Below, in pieces: positions 47,395-54,064 of a stretch of 64,000 nucleotides of DNA (within the stretch, counting starts at the first letter, position 1; each line of letters starts with the position of its first letter). A program made the position numbers and the translations under genes. This DNA is from Chitinophaga sp. (GTDB lineage Bacteria > Bacteroidota > Bacteroidia > Chitinophagales > Chitinophagaceae): assembly GCF_019236475.1 (NCBI RefSeq), contig NZ_JAFAIX010000004.1:1-64000 (forward strand), written 5' to 3'. Under the pieces are notes generated by a model. It was not told where the DNA came from. It ran no database searches and was given only the letters and a program-made list of their open reading frames with translations.

Positions 47395-47847
47395 CTATAG
47401 CGGCATACGTTCATCTAGGATGTTCAGTATTTTGGTCCAACTCTCTTTGGTACGATCTGCATATGGCGCCCATTTGTTATCCATATCATGGGTCAATGTA
47501 AGCGTACAGCCAACTTCCGTAGGTTGTATATCCAGACTAACCATACTGTCGTCCCCGGAATCGATGTCTACACCCCAGCTAAATACCAGGCGTGTAGGCC
47601 GGTCTATCTCCAGGTAGGTACCAATATGGTCCAGCTCCTGATCTCCTCGCTTGACTTTATAGCTAAACTTGCCACCAGGATAGAGATCATTGGTAAGATG
47701 GATAATTTCCTCTTCCCTGACAGAAGGGCCAAACATCCATTTGTCTAGTTTCCAGATATCTGTCCAGGCATCGAAGATGGCTTCGGCGGTATGGTGGAAA
47801 TCCTTCTGTACTTGTATTGAAAAGGTATTGTCGGATGTTTGTTCCAT
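47395..47847 (-). CDS. SRPBCC/AHSA1-like protein
   Basis: A 150-residue START-fold protein: VQKDFHHTAEAIFDAWTDIWKLDKWMFGPS at the start, then GGKFSYKVKRGDQELDHIGTYLEIDRPTRLVFSWG and a C-terminal ESWTKILNILDERM helix. This is the AHSA1/SRPBCC pattern of small ligand-binding or stress proteins. It lies 17 bases after the DUF72 gene, so it is probably the last gene of the leftward run starting at the rhodanese gene. Ligand unknown. Confidence 0.85.
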   Translation of the reverse strand: MEQTSDNTFSIQVQKDFHHTAEAIFDAWTDIWKLDKWMFGPSVREEEIIHLTNDLYPGGKFSYKVKRGDQELDHIGTYLEIDRPTRLVFSWGVDIDSGDDSMVSLDIQPTEVGCTLTLTHDMDNKWAPYADRTKESWTKILNILDERMPL

Positions 47848-47864: not shown

Positions 47865-48602
47865 TTATCGGTGAGACAACATATCCTGTAGCTTCCTGGC
47901 GTTCTCGGCGGCAAAGCCTTGCTGATCATTGTCGAAATAAATATACACATCTTTCTTTTCCTTATTCCAATGTTGGCATCGATACGCCCATTTCCGAAGC
48001 GCAGTTGTACTGTACTTTCCCTGATATTTCCCATCAGGGCCATGGAGCCGGATATACACCCAGTCTGCCGTCACTTCCATTGGAGAAAGCTGTCCGCTCA
48101 GTTCATAAATACAAAAGGCACAATTATATTGTTTCAATAGTGCGTATATGCTGGGAGCCCACCAACTAGGATCTCTGAACTCAAATGCATAACGATACTT
48201 TTGGGGCAACAGGGTAAGAAATGATTGTAAGCGGTCCGGATTAATTTTCCATCTGGGCGGCAACTGCCACAATATAGGACCCGTCTTGGTTTTCAGGTGG
48301 GCGGCATTGGAGATTAATTTGTGAATAGGTTCGGCATCCACCTGCAATTTCTTCATATGCGTGATATACCGACTTCCCTTAATGGCAAAAATAAACGCGC
48401 TGGGAGTAACTGCTTTCCAGTCGCGAAACCTTTCTGGTGGCGGTAGATGATAGAAAGAATTATTTATTTCAACGGTATGAAACGTTTGTGCATAGACGGA
48501 TAATTCATCTGCTTCTTTGATATCTTCCGGGTAGAAGACCCCTTTCCAGTGTTTGTACTGCCACCCGGAAGTGCCTACATATGTCTGGCTGCTGCGTTTC
48601 AT
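47865..48602 (-). CDS. DUF72 family protein
   Basis: A 245-residue TIM-barrel-like protein of the DUF72 (YecE) family: TYVGTSGWQYKHWKGVFYPE near the start, HTVEINNSFYHLPPPERFRDW, then ILWQLPPRWKINPDRL and the end VYIYFDNDQQGFAAENARKLQDML. The conserved YVRLHG-type motif is YIRLHGPDGKY. The function of the family is not settled. It lies 40 bases after the MFS gene and 17 bases before the SRPBCC gene. Confidence 0.9.
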   Translation of the reverse strand: MKRSSQTYVGTSGWQYKHWKGVFYPEDIKEADELSVYAQTFHTVEINNSFYHLPPPERFRDWKAVTPSAFIFAIKGSRYITHMKKLQVDAEPIHKLISNAAHLKTKTGPILWQLPPRWKINPDRLQSFLTLLPQKYRYAFEFRDPSWWAPSIYALLKQYNCAFCIYELSGQLSPMEVTADWVYIRLHGPDGKYQGKYSTTALRKWAYRCQHWNKEKKDVYIYFDNDQQGFAAENARKLQDMLSHR

Positions 48603-48642: not shown

Positions 48643-49884
48643 TTATTTTTTCATCGTTTCTTTCATCCTGATCCATACCACGACTCCGGAAAGGAAGGTG
48701 ACGAATCCTGCAATATGCACTGCCCAGATAAGTCCCAGGAAATGCGCTACGATACCCGCCATCAATGCGCCTACGGCATAACCGATATCTCTCCAAAAAC
48801 GATATACGCCCAGGGATGAAGCTCTCCAGGAGGGATGCGCCGCATCGCTTACTGCTGCCAGCAAGGCCGGGTATACCATGGCAGTACCCATTCCCAAGAA
48901 GACAGACCCCACCAAGCCGGATGTCAATGGGGAGAAGAATTCCAGCCCGATAACGATATGTCCCAATACCTGGACAAACATGCCCCATACGATTAATGGC
49001 TTTCTCCCTATACGATCCGCCAATGGCCCTGTAATAATCTGACCTACGCCCCATACTACCGGATAAACCGCTTTAATCCAACCTACACCTTCCAATCCTA
49101 CACCCATGGAAATAAACAGTAATGGGAAAACGCCCCATGACATGCCATCATTCAAGTTATTGATCAAACCAGCCTGAGAAATGGAAAAGAGATTTTTATT
49201 GCGGAAAGTTGTTTCTTTAAATACCCATAGCAGATTTGGTTTATGCACTTGTTCTCCGGAAGTAGTGGCTGTTACCATGGCAGATTCCAGATGTGCATGC
49301 TGGCGGGTGTCCTTGATCACCAAGATCGACAGTATCAGCCCGGCAATCGTATAAAATATACCGATGTAGAATGGCTGTGGTCTTAATCCGTAGGTGGCAG
49401 CAAGATACCCAGTCAGCAGGGCCGTGAGACCTACAGCGCCATAGCCAGCCGCTTCATTGATACCCATTGCGAAGCCGCGTTTTTTAGGCCCTACCAGGTC
49501 AATTTTCATGTTCACGGTCATAGACCAGGTGAGTCCCTGGCTGACGCCCAAGAGGATGTTGGCCGCAATAATCCAATTCCAGCTAGGGCCCCAGGCCAAA
49601 AGGAAAGGCACTGGCAACCCGATAATCCAACCCAATATCAGTACGCGTTTGCGGGTGTATTTATCCGCCAAAACCCCGGAAATGAGGTTGGTAAAGGCTT
49701 TCACCACGCCAAAGGCAATGATGAAAGAAAAAACTACTATGTCCGATCCAATCTTAAACTCTTCTGTACCTACCAATGGAACAACTGTTCTTTCCAATCC
49801 CACCATTCCACCTACCAGCATATTGACCAGTACGAGTAATGAGAATTGCCTCCAGTTTTCTTTTAATCCTAACTTTATATCCAC
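48643..49884 (-). CDS. MFS transporter
   Basis: A 413-residue inner-membrane protein with 12 predicted helices in two six-helix halves. The MFS motif A region is GVLADKYTRKRVLILGW in the first half and GPLADRIGRKPLIVWGM in the second, with a central loop at about 190-220 (RQHAHLESAMVTATTSGEQVHKPN). The cargo is unknown; linkage to a rhodanese gene and an ArsR-rhodanese operator suggests a sulfur compound or metalloid oxyanion, as inference. It starts 96 bases after the rhodanese gene. The gap has an inverted repeat (GAAATAGC, 49916-49923 and 49930-49937) that could be a leader or internal terminator. Confidence 0.9.
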   Translation of the reverse strand: MDIKLGLKENWRQFSLLVLVNMLVGGMVGLERTVVPLVGTEEFKIGSDIVVFSFIIAFGVVKAFTNLISGVLADKYTRKRVLILGWIIGLPVPFLLAWGPSWNWIIAANILLGVSQGLTWSMTVNMKIDLVGPKKRGFAMGINEAAGYGAVGLTALLTGYLAATYGLRPQPFYIGIFYTIAGLILSILVIKDTRQHAHLESAMVTATTSGEQVHKPNLLWVFKETTFRNKNLFSISQAGLINNLNDGMSWGVFPLLFISMGVGLEGVGWIKAVYPVVWGVGQIITGPLADRIGRKPLIVWGMFVQVLGHIVIGLEFFSPLTSGLVGSVFLGMGTAMVYPALLAAVSDAAHPSWRASSLGVYRFWRDIGYAVGALMAGIVAHFLGLIWAVHIAGFVTFLSGVVVWIRMKETMKK

Positions 49885-50332: not shown

Positions 50333-50340
50333 CAAAGGTA
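50333..50340 (-). promoter_or_regulatory. -7 box of the rhodanese gene
   Basis: TACCTTTG on the minus strand, 22 bases before the ATG at 50310. The operator at 50350-50383 covers the expected -33 position. Confidence 0.65.
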
Positions 50341-50349
50341 GGAAATAAT

Positions 50350-50383
50350 ATCAACTATTCAATAATTTCATTGAATAGTTGAT
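50350..50383. promoter_or_regulatory. palindromic operator, ArsR-rhodanese regulon
   Basis: A perfect 14-base inverted repeat (ATCAACTATTCAAT, spacer of 6, complement). The core CTATTCAAT-N6-ATTGAATAG recurs upstream of the ArsR-rhodanese gene at 54041-54064 with the same spacer. Its overlap with the promoter suggests repression. Confidence 0.75.
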
Positions 50384-50463
50384 TTATCGGGAGATGAAAG
50401 TCGCTTTGATTATATAAGTCACTTAAAACCAGGGAGTGGTGAATGGGGCTTCTCCAAAAATAG

Positions 50464-50574
50464 AGAGGCCACCTCTTGGGGAGGCGGCCTCTTTATGGGT
50501 TAAGGAAATATTTGGAATAACTAAACAAAGGACGAAAGGCCGTAGACGTTAGGTTAAGTTCAGCCTACGGGTCC
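50464..50574 (+). other. two hairpins in the 50.3-50.7 kb gap, possible small RNA
   Basis: In the 424-base gap 50311-50734, hairpin 1 (AGAGGCCACCTC / GAGGCGGCCTCT, 50464-50492) runs into CTTT, and hairpin 2 (CCGTAG / CTACGG with outer GGAC / GTCC, 50530-50574) runs into TTTTT at 50578-50582. Neither follows an identified gene, so they may belong to a short non-coding transcript. The rest of the gap holds the rhodanese operator and the CTACAA array. Confidence 0.3.
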
Positions 50575-50667
50575 AGGTTTTTCAATTGATTATTTTACTA
50601 TCCTTTCTGTAGATGAACTCTGGTGCAAAAATATATGCTCATGGCGGATTTCATGGATTTTGAGCCT

Positions 50668-50718
50668 CTACAAGGTGACTACACTACATCATTTTTTGCA
50701 TCTACAAAACATCTACAA
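50668..50718. promoter_or_regulatory. phased CTACAA array before the TPR/HTH regulator
   Basis: Copies at 50668, 50679 (CTACAC), 50702 and 50713, spaced 11, 23 and 11 bases. Nearly the same array (11, 22, 11) lies at 53128-53177. A TATTTTTG box at 50723-50730 follows directly, so binding here would probably block or touch the promoter. Confidence 0.65.
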
Positions 50719-50734
50719 ATGTTATTTTTGCCGA

Positions 50735-52672
50735 ATGAACCGTATCCAAAAAAGCCTGGTATTACTATTATGTACCCTGATGGGCTTGTTGTATAAAACT
50801 AACGTGGTTGCCCAAACGGTGGTAGACTCACTACAGAAAGTGTTGGCCCAACCTACGCTCACACCGGAGGAGCAGGTGTTGACCCGGTTAAAATTGAGTC
50901 GTGCCCTATTGAGTACAGACCGCAAAGGCGCCTTGACGAACGCGCAAGTGGCCTTGTCTATGAGTCACTCGTTGAAGGACAGTAAGTATGCCGCACAATC
51001 TCATTCCTCTTTGGTGTCTATTATGTATGGGCAGGAAGATATTAAAGGTGTAAACCAGCAACTGGACAGTGCCTTTCTATTAGCGGAGCAATCCGGCGAT
51101 CCACTCACTATGGAGAATGTTTGGTACCGTAAAGGTTGGATGGAAACGAGAGTGGGCAAGCCACATGAGGCGGTGAAGAGCTTCCAACAAGCCTTGAAAT
51201 TCGGAGAAAAAAGGCCTCCTAACAGTTATACCACCAGCATATATTATAATCTTTCGGCTATTTACGCAGATTGGGACGACCTGGATAACCAGTCCAGATA
51301 CGCGTTTGCCTGCTTGGATGCGGCCAAGCAAGTCCAGGACCCGGATGATATCTGTAATGCCTACCAGGCCGTAGCTACCAGCTATGAGCATAGGTTCGGC
51401 AAGGATAATAATGCGCGGGAACTGTTGGATTCTTCCCTGTATTACAATCGCTTAGCGATTCAATTTTATCAGCAAAACAAGAACCGGATCAGTTTTTCCA
51501 GTACGCTAGGGGTGATTGCTCTCAATACCGCGAATCTCTATGCGGAGTTTTTCCCTCGCAATTTCCGCGATTCCGCCCAACATTATCTGAAGATCGCCCA
51601 GGATATTGGAATTGCTACCAATCAACAGGAAGTAATTGCCAGTAGTTACGGTATGCAAAGCAGCTTCGAGCTAGCGGATGGTCATTATGATGCAGCGGCA
51701 GGATTACTACTAACGGGATTGCATATACTACAGGAATCGCCGGTACCAGATAATAATCTGATGGCGCATTTTATGAGTAGTTTGTCGGAAGTCTCGGAGA
51801 AAAAAGGGGACCTGGCAGGCGCCCTGCATTATGAAAGGGAACATACCAAATACTATGCTGCGGCCTTTGATGCAGAAAAAATGGCCATTGCGAAAAGACT
51901 GGAAGCCCAGTACCAGACCCAACAAAGAGAACAACAACTGCTAACATTGCAGGAAAAAGCGGCTTTCAATAAGAAACTGAATATTGTCTATATCATATTA
52001 ATCATCGCTTCTATATTGGCGTTGATCTTCCTGTTCCGATCTTACCATTTTCACCTCAAATCCACTATTCAGCAGCAGGCATTGTTGGAAAAAGAAAAGC
52101 AGGATGCCGTATTACAGGTGCGTCTGAAAGAGGAAGAAGCAAAAACATTGGAGTTGGAAAAACAGGAAGCTGCCCTTCAAGCACAGTTGCAAAGCGAGGC
52201 GGCAGCCCGATCATTGGCGGAGCAGCAATTGATACAGGCGCAGAAGGAGCAACTCCAGAAAGACTTACTGGCGGGCACTTTGCAAGTGGAACAAAAGAAT
52301 GAACTGCTGCAAACCCTCCAAGCCAAATTGCAAGAGAAATCTGGCGACCGTAACCTGATTGGGCAGATCAATCGTATGATAGACCAGGATCGGCGGATGG
52401 ATGAGGATTTTGAAACGGCGAAAACAGAATTGGAAAATATTCATCCGGAGTTCTTCTCCCGATTACAATTGAAGGCGAATAATAGTCTTACCAGACTTGA
52501 TTTAAAGCATTGTTCTTATATATCTATGGGGTTGTCGACCAAGGAAATTTCTTCGAGGTTGGGAGTGGCGCCTAAGAGTATCTTGATGTCGCGGTATCGA
52601 ATCAAACAGAAGCTGGGACTGGGGAAAGACGAGGGGCTGGATGCCTATTTGATGAAAGAAGCAGGTAATTAA
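50735..52672 (+). CDS. membrane TPR regulator with C-terminal HTH
   Basis: A 645-residue protein, start at 50735, where MNRIQKSLVLLLCTLMGLLYKTNVVAQ makes a signal sequence. TPR-like helices fill about residues 30-390, a membrane segment lies at about 413-436 (VYIILIIASILALIFLF), a Gln/Glu/Leu-rich coiled coil at about 440-560, and a LuxR-type HTH near the end (CSYISMGLSTKEISSRLGVAPKSILMSRYRIKQKLGL). This layout is a Bacteroidota one-component sensor: periplasmic TPR input, cytoplasmic DNA-binding output. The phased CTACAA array just upstream is a likely autoregulatory site. Confidence 0.85.
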   Translation: MNRIQKSLVLLLCTLMGLLYKTNVVAQTVVDSLQKVLAQPTLTPEEQVLTRLKLSRALLSTDRKGALTNAQVALSMSHSLKDSKYAAQSHSSLVSIMYGQEDIKGVNQQLDSAFLLAEQSGDPLTMENVWYRKGWMETRVGKPHEAVKSFQQALKFGEKRPPNSYTTSIYYNLSAIYADWDDLDNQSRYAFACLDAAKQVQDPDDICNAYQAVATSYEHRFGKDNNARELLDSSLYYNRLAIQFYQQNKNRISFSSTLGVIALNTANLYAEFFPRNFRDSAQHYLKIAQDIGIATNQQEVIASSYGMQSSFELADGHYDAAAGLLLTGLHILQESPVPDNNLMAHFMSSLSEVSEKKGDLAGALHYEREHTKYYAAAFDAEKMAIAKRLEAQYQTQQREQQLLTLQEKAAFNKKLNIVYIILIIASILALIFLFRSYHFHLKSTIQQQALLEKEKQDAVLQVRLKEEEAKTLELEKQEAALQAQLQSEAAARSLAEQQLIQAQKEQLQKDLLAGTLQVEQKNELLQTLQAKLQEKSGDRNLIGQINRMIDQDRRMDEDFETAKTELENIHPEFFSRLQLKANNSLTRLDLKHCSYISMGLSTKEISSRLGVAPKSILMSRYRIKQKLGLGKDEGLDAYLMKEAGN

Positions 52673-52677
52673 AACAA

Positions 52678-52716
52678 TAAAACGGGGCCGCTGCTATAGC
52701 TCGCGGCCCCGTTTTA
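52678..52716. terminator. bidirectional terminator
   Basis: A perfect 14-base stem TAAAACGGGGCCGC / GCGGCCCCGTTTTA between the TPR/HTH regulator and the convergent DUF4870-like gene. Confidence 0.85.
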
Positions 52717-53052
52717 TTAAGCTTCCTGTAAGAAAGCGAATTTGTTTTGGAAGAATTTACCAATTACGGGAATTGGTTTTTGTACACCGTTATTGGCATT
52801 GATGATTCCAAAAACCATAAAGATAATCGGCAATAATCCTGCAATGGATAAAATACCAGCCAGGGCAGCAGGTAAGATCGCAATCACGATACTCAGAGCA
52901 ATACACCACACCATACCAGCGATGGCCAATCCGAGGGCCTGTTCCAGGTGATAGCTTACCAGGCTGCTTTTATTGTCTTTACTTTTCACATATGCTACAA
53001 TCCATCCGATAATTGTGATATAAGCGATCATAGCCCATTGATTTGTTTTCAT
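52717..53052 (-). CDS. DUF4870/Tic20-like membrane protein
   Basis: A 111-residue membrane protein, start at 53052 (MKTNQWAMIAYITIIGWIVAY). The pattern SLVSYHLEQALGLAIAGMVW, three to four hydrophobic helices and the end IPVIGKFFQNKFAFL fit small DUF4870/Tic20-like proteins of Bacteroidota, often named import component proteins. Function is unknown. A TAATTTTG promoter box (53086-53093) is followed upstream by a phased CTACAA array like the one before the TPR/HTH regulator, so that regulator may activate it. Confidence 0.82.
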   Translation of the reverse strand: MKTNQWAMIAYITIIGWIVAYVKSKDNKSSLVSYHLEQALGLAIAGMVWCIALSIVIAILPAALAGILSIAGLLPIIFMVFGIINANNGVQKPIPVIGKFFQNKFAFLQEA

Positions 53053-53085
53053 AGCTGAGGTTTTTTGTTTAAGAATGATTTCCAG

Positions 53086-53093
53086 CAAAATTA
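53086..53093 (-). promoter_or_regulatory. -7 box of the DUF4870-like gene
   Basis: TAATTTTG on the minus strand, 33 bases before the ATG at 53052. The CTACAA array begins 35 bases upstream, an activator-type position. Confidence 0.55.
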
Positions 53094-53127
53094 GATCGCC
53101 GGCCCTTCAGCGCGAAAAATGTAGCTA

Positions 53128-53177
53128 CTACAAGACATCTACAATTTGCAGAAAATAGCGCTACAAAAAAACTACAA
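53128..53177. promoter_or_regulatory. phased CTACAA array before the DUF4870-like gene
   Basis: Perfect CTACAA copies at 53128, 53139, 53161 and 53172, spaced 11, 22 and 11 bases, so all face one side of the helix. The decamer ACATCTACAA (53135-53144) also occurs at 50709-50718 in the matching array. Confidence 0.7.
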
Positions 53178-53242
53178 TGGTTTTATATGATTGATTATAA
53201 ATTAATTGTAAATATGTAAAATGTGCATATTAGTATATGCGT

Positions 53243-53911
53243 CTACGTGGTAGTATGTTCAACGGGGAGACCTCTGAGTGCCCAATCGGGATAGCCTTCG
53301 TTCATTCGCACAGCATTAAAACCTTTCTTTTTCAGCATGGCCACCGCTTCATCGGCGTAGACACAGAATGGTCCGCGGCAATAAGCGACGATCATTTTAT
53401 TTTTTTCCAGGTGTTTTAATTGTTCGTTCAGTTTATCTACAGGGGCAGAAATAGCCCGATGGATATGTCCGCGGTTATATTCCTCTTCTGGTCTTACATC
53501 CAGGAGGATGACTTCCTCTTTCTCGATCTTTTTGACAAGGGAGGCCGCATCTACAGAGGTCACTTCTCCATGGCCTTTTCTGAAATCGGTGACTACTTTT
53601 TCAACTTCCGCATTGTATTCCAGTCCTAATTCCCGGAGTCCTGCCCAAGCATGGAAGACGCTTTCTCCTGCCAGGCTATAATGAATAAAATTGCCGTTCC
53701 GGCTGATCTTAACCAGTTTGGCATGCTTTAATGTCTGCAAATGTTGGGAGGCATTGGCAACAGACATACCCGTGTAATGGGCGATTTCTTCCACTGAAAA
53801 TGGCCCTTGCGCCAAGAGGTCTATGATCTCCAAGCGATGGGGATTACTCAAAGCTTTGGTTACTTTGGATAATTCCCCATACACTTTATCTTTAAAATCT
53901 CTCTTATTCAT
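53243..53911 (-). CDS. ArsR-type repressor fused to rhodanese
   Basis: A 222-residue fusion. The winged helix of ArsR type spans about 10-90 (SNPHRLEIIDLLAQG, SVEEIAHYTGMSVANASQHLQTLKHAKLV), followed by a rhodanese domain (about 115-218; LLDVRPEEEYNRGHI, active loop AYCRGPFCVYADEAV). The only cysteines are Cys178 (catalytic) and Cys183, both in that loop, so the sulfur signal is probably sensed there, not in the HTH as in SqrR or BigR. I chose ATG 53911 (MNKRDFKDKV); an in-frame ATG at 53974 is also possible. The operator upstream matches that of the rhodanese gene. Confidence 0.9.
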   Translation of the reverse strand: MNKRDFKDKVYGELSKVTKALSNPHRLEIIDLLAQGPFSVEEIAHYTGMSVANASQHLQTLKHAKLVKISRNGNFIHYSLAGESVFHAWAGLRELGLEYNAEVEKVVTDFRKGHGEVTSVDAASLVKKIEKEEVILLDVRPEEEYNRGHIHRAISAPVDKLNEQLKHLEKNKMIVAYCRGPFCVYADEAVAMLKKKGFNAVRMNEGYPDWALRGLPVEHTTT

Positions 53912-54025
53912 ACCATGATAATTTGACCAGATACCCTGCCCCTCAAAGCGATCATTTCTTTCTCCGCTGCTCACTTGTAAAATTCATAAATGAAGTGCTG
54001 TTTCGGATATTGCTTGTCCTTTCTG

Positions 54026-54033
54026 CAAAGGTA
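54026..54033 (-). promoter_or_regulatory. -7 box of the ArsR-rhodanese gene
   Basis: TACCTTTG on the minus strand, identical to the rhodanese gene box. It lies 7 bases from the operator at 54041-54064, so a transcript would start near 54019. Confidence 0.6.
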
Positions 54034-54040
54034 AATAAAT

Positions 54041-54064
54041 CTATTCAATGGATAAATTGAATGG
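54041..54064. promoter_or_regulatory. operator of the ArsR-rhodanese gene
   Basis: CTATTCAAT-N6-ATTGAATGG, one mismatch from a perfect palindrome and with the same arm and spacer as the operator at 50355-50378. Its position over the -33 region suggests autorepression. Confidence 0.7.

Follow-up and report, generated by a model that had tools for sequence, protein, structure and literature searches.

The window considered here is a 64,000-nucleotide stretch of a Chitinophaga genome, in which an ArsR-type regulator carrying a fused C-terminal rhodanese domain is encoded near a single-domain rhodanese and a major facilitator superfamily (MFS) transporter. Two palindromes lie upstream of the minus-strand genes for the rhodanese and the ArsR-rhodanese protein, respectively, and beside each stands a CAAAGGTA/TACCTTTG box (Table 1). 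The positions that an earlier note on this DNA, made from the sequence alone, had given for the twin palindromes and the identical TACCTTTG boxes upstream of both genes were confirmed. The interval between the palindromes contains, with the regulator, a TPR/LuxR-type gene and a DUF4870 gene, neither of which was assigned to the regulon; all genes are longest-open reading frame (ORF) calls, not annotations. The regulator is probably (at about 0.7) an autoregulated repressor that is relieved when sulfane sulfur modifies the loop holding its Cys178 and Cys183.

Table 1. Features of the predicted ArsR-rhodanese regulon in the window.
Feature	Position	Strand	Remarks
Candidate operator 1, CTATTCAATAATTTCATTGAATAG	50355-50378		Perfect 9-6-9 palindrome, upstream of the rhodanese-MFS unit
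Candidate operator 2, CTATTCAATGGATAAATTGAATGG	54041-54064		9-6-9 palindrome with one mismatch, upstream of the regulator (putative autoregulation)
ArsR-rhodanese regulator, 222 aa	53243-53911	minus	ATG at 53911; Pfam HTH_5 at residues 23-68, Rhodanese at 122-211
Codons for Cys178-Arg-Gly-Pro-Phe-Cys183 (rhodanese loop)	53363-53380	minus	Only two cysteines of the regulator
Single-domain rhodanese, 109 aa	49981-50310	minus	Cys72 in a CGAGGL loop; Pfam
MFS transporter	48643-49884	minus	Pfam; genus distribution; operator association
Predicted -7 box of the rhodanese-MFS unit, TACCTTTG	50333-50340	minus	14 bp from operator 1
Predicted -7 box of the regulator, TACCTTTG	54026-54033	minus	7 bp from the palindrome end of operator 2

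At up to three mismatches, the window contains two palindromes (four strand matches) against 0.46 matches expected, and four matches were reached in one of 100 shuffles. The earlier note had called for a search of the genome for further sites; at up to one mismatch the whole 6.48-Mb sequence returned only two palindromes, both in the window. A third palindrome (G000:C2:616629-616652), with two mismatches, lies between ORFs resembling nuoD and nuoE (names assigned by eye) and a fourth has three mismatches; since a control pattern gives two sites at up to three mismatches in the same genome, both are probably due to chance, and the third was rejected as a regulon member on its mismatches, its setting and the control result. 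Among 79 Chitinophaga-type genomes, the regulator (called at E ≤ 1e-30) is present in 25, and 24 of these have the palindrome at up to one mismatch, as compared with two of the 54 others (Fisher p 7e-17), whereas the control pattern occurs in none of the 79. In the 25th regulator genome (G041), two-mismatch sites precede both the regulator and the MFS gene. Each of the 35 sites at up to one mismatch in the other 24 genomes stands at the head of a unit that contains an AraC-thioredoxin pair, the MFS gene or the regulator, and six of these sites are remote from the regulator. The two sites in regulator-less genomes (G026 and G028) are identical in sequence, with a G+C-rich spacer, and the one in G026 overlaps an ORF start.

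The arrangement of the cargo genes follows two patterns in the genus. The regulator adjoins the MFS gene in clade A and AraC and thioredoxin genes in clade B, the latter comprising seven genomes with CRGSLC or CRGTLC loops. An exact remote operator stands just upstream of the MFS gene, itself distant from the regulator, in four clade-B genomes (G013, G019, G031 and G076); in two clade-A genomes (G018 and G061) one occupies the corresponding place before a distant AraC-thioredoxin pair. An MFS orthologue was found in 24 of the 25 regulator genomes versus four of the 54 others, and an operator at up to two mismatches lies no more than 3.5 kb upstream of it in 23 of those 24 versus none of the four. 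The single-domain rhodanese, by comparison, was matched (E ≤ 1e-15) in two of the 79 genomes, by the window's own copy and by the N-terminal part of a rhodanese-MBL protein. Sequence comparison thus strongly supports the MFS transporter, and not the stand-alone rhodanese, as the conserved target of the predicted regulon; of the outputs proposed in the earlier note, the MFS gene, offered there with hesitation, stands, while the rhodanese was rejected as main target by this distribution and represents a local addition. Short gaps separate the MFS gene from the DUF72 (47865-48602) and AHSA1 (47395-47847) genes that come after it on that strand, and all three may share a transcript.

The TACCTTTG boxes link these sites to promoters. 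The consensus TAnnTTTG has been reported as the sigma-A -7 element of a flavobacterium (PMC9723704). Both TACCTTTG boxes match it, which places the candidate operators on promoters. Downstream of the 50 genus and family operators, TAnnTTTG occurs within 26 bp in 34 cases, as against a mean of 1.4 and a maximum of seven in 500 shuffles, and on the upstream side in none. The -33 element is placed relative to the -7 box by a spacing rule, and the TTG of the downstream half-site of operator 1, 19 bp from its -7 box, falls at that position. A reading of the boxes as second, additional boxes of the regulator was rejected, as they fit a -7 promoter element and are enriched next to operators. A location on core promoters in the genus and family favours repression, as a repressor would need such placement. 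By sequence, palindromic operators lie in the predicted promoters of both the regulator's own gene and its cargo.

Conservation of the site extends well beyond the genus, although the regulator itself is scattered, being present (E ≤ 1e-40, the window's genome counted) in 13 of 294 family genomes and 24 of 395 phylum genomes. Searches were made with whole-protein queries, which biases them toward conserved domains. In 33 further family and phylum homologues (38-73% identity), the core ATTCAAT-N6-ATTGAAT lies within 120 bp upstream in 25 at up to one and in 28 at up to two mismatches, and among 80 named loci, the best of 523 relatives found, in 52 and 63, respectively; these loci share some of their genomes with the genus and family sets, which makes the counts non-additive. 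A part of the loci compared here, chosen beforehand by E-value, was oriented by the YCRG..C motif. In the genus, the core falls within 120 bp at up to one mismatch in 12 of 25 loci and further up, at the operon head or before the MFS gene, in the other 13. Permuted half-sites, used as the control for the core, reach at most one locus in the 120-bp test, and other spacers reach 0-6. In four genomes of other phyla, namely those of a Mycobacteroides, an acidobacterium, a deltaproteobacterium and a Thermaerobacter (the last an assembly of 1.3 Mb and hence partial), an exact ATTCAA-N8-TTGAAT occurs once per genome, before the ArsR-rhodanese gene. In Actinomycetota, the phylum of Mycobacteroides, 42 of 246 genomes have a regulator homologue; 30 loci, including the near-identical groups L246-L248 and L258, L260, L262, L265 and L267, show the core at up to two mismatches within 200 bp in 11 cases (permuted half-sites at most one) and ATTCAA-N8-TTGAAT at up to two mismatches in 23, despite a G+C content of 61-74% in 28 of the loci; the latter count was taken without a permuted control. 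Co-occurrence and cross-phylum conservation therefore both support the proposal of the earlier note that the twin sites are operators of the regulator.

The regulator combines two recognisable halves. Its helix-turn-helix (HTH) half has the ArsR winged-helix signature (HTH_5, E 7.6e-11; NF033788, 84.1 bits against a cut-off of 55), and its C-terminal half is a rhodanese domain with the loop cysteine present (PF00581, E 3.2e-17). In an AlphaFold2 (AF2) model with a mean predicted local distance difference test score (pLDDT) of 93.3 and a predicted template modelling score (pTM) of 0.87, Cys178 is at the end of strand 173-177, Cys183 stands just before helix 184-195, and the pair thus spans the rhodanese loop, and the recognition helix (51-63) includes A52, S55, H57, L58 and L61, which are invariant in alignment A2. 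By fold, the HTH half of the model matches NolR, CzrA, SmtB and Mb0332 and the rhodanese half BH2092, the top match; no full-length ArsR-rhodanese fusion is among the Protein Data Bank (PDB) matches listed by sequence or by fold (the latter the best 50 of 163 at E ≤ 0.001). Homologues begin at the same methionine. Matches to PADLOC models (Csa3, CasR and similar) were set aside, all falling within residues 3-118, that is, the HTH half and the linker.

Cysteine occurs solely at positions 178 and 183 (CRGPFC), as had been noted earlier, and is absent from residues 1-177; the single-domain rhodanese has one cysteine (Cys72) and the MFS protein none. The pair is retained in 58 of 58 genus-to-phylum homologues, in which no further cysteine column is conserved, in all 56 sequences of alignment A2, in 79 of the 80 named loci, plus the 80th when read through an in-frame stop, and in all 30 Actinomycetota loci, these sets overlapping in part. 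Arg179 and Gly180 are likewise invariant in alignments A1 and A2. With the Asp/His ligands of alpha-5-type metal sensors in mind, His87 was compared across A1, where N, D, A, S, K or Q may take its place. The in-frame stops in homologues L118 and L220 may reflect decayed copies or assembly errors, and that of L240, near the C-terminus, may be a natural end.

The placement of these cysteines separates the regulator from characterised relatives. Known ArsR persulfide sensors use two cysteines of the ArsR domain, between which a sulfur bridge forms that releases DNA (PMC12423496, PMC10509353), and they adjoin rhodanese and sulfur-transport genes (PMC10509353). The SqrR/BigR/YgaV/SoxR group resembles the present protein in comprising ArsR repressors with a bridging cysteine pair, targeting rhodanese, sulfide:quinone oxidoreductase (SQR) and persulfide dioxygenase genes (PMC12423496, PMC9774250, PMC10509353), but its pair resides in the ArsR domain (Cys50/Cys116 in sHdrR, C38/C104 in HlyU), whereas here the ArsR half lacks cysteine and the pair is in the fused rhodanese loop. 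Neither the window protein nor the 58 homologues have two conserved ArsR-domain cysteines, the BigR model scores 43.2 bits on the regulator against a cut-off of 155, and the HTH-domain ligands of metal-sensing CxC proteins were found in neither the regulator nor its homologues. In its mode of action the regulator looks like a persulfide sensor, yet it does not share the cysteine positions of the SqrR/BigR group and may represent another sensing mode. In E. coli, the ArsR repressor YgaV controls an operon of its own gene and the rhodanese gene ygaP, and sulfide weakens its DNA binding (PMC9774250). YgaV and YgaP are two separate proteins, while the present regulator unites both domains in one chain. 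The mycobacterial regulator Rv0324 presumably has a rhodanese domain, and Mb0332 is taken here to be its counterpart. By sequence, no ArsR entry of the PDB matches better than the HTH fragment of Mb0332 (2kko/3gw2), and a Mycobacteroides homologue of the regulator is full length, with a CRGPYC loop and an operator. Rv0324 differs in being discussed as a regulator of bedaquiline tolerance (PMC9480834), and no paper naming both Rv0324 and rhodanese was found in the open literature search. The top fold match, the single-domain rhodanese BH2092 (3nhv/3o3w), shares the C-x-G-P-x-C loop but has no DNA-binding domain. The same search found no characterised ArsR-rhodanese fusion in the portions of papers it covered, and work outside that library is possible; the findings point to a family of reactive-sulfur sensors that is widespread and apparently unstudied.

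It is proposed that the regulator would bind ATTCAAT-N6-ATTGAAT palindromes as a dimer, covering its own core promoter and that of the MFS unit (which here includes the rhodanese gene) and thus blocking RNA polymerase. The fused rhodanese domain would serve as the sensor, with a sulfane-sulfur donor (persulfide, polysulfide or thiosulfate) loading Cys178, after which a disulfide or polysulfide to Cys183 may close the loop. The altered domain would cause the dimer to release DNA, allowing expression of the transporter and of sulfur-handling genes. The comparisons argue strongly for the identity of the operator and its overlap with promoters, for autoregulation, for the MFS gene as a target and for both cysteines being important, and suggest repression rather than activation, sulfane sulfur as signal and a Cys178-Cys183 bridge.

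Sulfane sulfur is the likeliest signal because sulfur-handling genes recur among the neighbours of the regulator. Of the named loci with a readable downstream gene, 37/67 have a sulfur-handling relative (rhodanese-MBL, SQR-like, DsrE or secreted rhodanese-like), 36/67 an MFS gene, 3/67 efflux-type genes and 55/67 any of the three, the labels denoting resemblance at E ≤ 1e-6 to proteins encoded in L041, L100, L113 or the window; at least one non-regulator query protein matches at E ≤ 1e-6, in some cases weakly, in 29 of the 30 Actinomycetota loci. The SQR-like protein scores 216 bits on a type III SQR selenoprotein model with a cut-off of 525. Further companions are VKOR, DsrE, methyltransferases and a BshB1-like deacetylase, the last below cut-off. 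In L036, L039, L041 and L090 the operon is headed by a recurring, secreted-looking protein that carries a CGCCPF..KCPN-like motif, and that of L041 has no Pfam or NCBIfam match. In the distant homologues L100, L105 and L120, the regulator precedes TolC-MFP-RND efflux-like genes (named by eye), which is not the cargo one would expect of a sulfur sensor.

The main rival is oxidant or disulfide stress acting on the same repressor, operators and cysteines, with Cys178 being oxidised and pairing with Cys183 in the absence of sulfur transfer. Rhodanese folds specialise in sulfur transfer, and the recurrence of SQR-like, DsrE and rhodanese-MBL neighbours also speaks for sulfur, making this alternative unlikely despite the invariant C-x4-C pair, the TlpA-like, thioredoxin and VKOR genes of some regulons, and the precedent of RexT, a cyanobacterial ArsR protein that senses H2O2 and controls thioredoxin (PMC8960804). 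Much less probable is a sensor of metals or metalloids, with Cys178 and Cys183 as ligands of As(III), Hg(II) or similar and the MFS protein as an efflux pump. The ArsR/SmtB fold, the MFS target and two thiols able to bind soft metals are compatible with it, but the HTH half is devoid of cysteine, and four residues separate the loop cysteines, the short form of the rhodanese loop being the sulfur/selenium kind (PMC5525254). Moreover, ArsB, ACR3 and ArsC are absent from the 25 most frequent Pfam families listed for 60 otherwise unclassified downstream genes, 35 one-member families lying outside these. An arsenite methyltransferase reading of the neighbouring methyltransferases was also rejected, as three of the four scanned (seven counted) match such models at about 26-31 bits, far under cut-offs of 240-510. 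Slightly less credible still is a rhodanese domain that is structural or enzymatic only, in a regulator answering another ligand or acting as an activator, which would agree with cargo differing among lineages but not with the invariance of both cysteines across phyla despite that variation, nor with the core-promoter operators of the genus and family.

Several observations weigh against a repressor relieved by sulfane sulfur as set out above. In the genus, G077 has regulator and MFS gene but no operator at the latter, G051 has the regulator without an MFS gene, and the stand-alone rhodanese is local to the window's genome. The core is missing at up to two mismatches within 120 bp in 17 of the 80 named and five of the 33 family and phylum loci, and in 19 of the 30 Actinomycetota loci, some of which retain TTCAA-TTGAA halves; a second homologue in the Mycobacteroides genome (G748), 47% identical, has no exact site. 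Outside the genus and family, a full TAnnTTTG box accompanies one of 27 core-like sites (loci L100-L122), and given this rarity the promoter-overlap argument is local to these two groups. The cargo is mixed, with thioredoxins, RND-type efflux genes, AraC and methyltransferases as well, so that thiol-redox or toxic-compound signals are also conceivable, and the MFS protein had no PDB chain match at E ≤ 1e-5. The C-x4-C loop is likewise present in the solved structure of the stand-alone rhodanese BH2092 (CWGPAC), and for this reason the motif alone is no proof of sensing. The interpretation put forward in the earlier note is thus upheld in part, the recurrence of sulfur-handling neighbours counting in its favour, and the mechanism it proposed ranks first among those considered, the conserved output being the MFS gene and not the rhodanese gene.

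In a broader perspective, the odds lean somewhat towards a bacteria-wide group of reactive-sulfur repressors in which a fused sulfurtransferase loop would act as the allosteric switch, through a Cys178 persulfide and a Cys183 bridge, and in which an ancient ATTCAA-N8-TTGAAT operator would control an uncharacterised MFS family and sulfur-oxidation genes from Bacteroidota to Actinomycetota. If true, sulfane-sulfur sensing in bacteria would have a second architecture, one that places the switch in an enzyme domain and not in the domain that binds DNA, and an uncharacterised MFS transporter would be tied to sulfur stress. The precise operator predicts regulons from sequence in several phyla, and the mycobacterial homologues may gain a testable signal.

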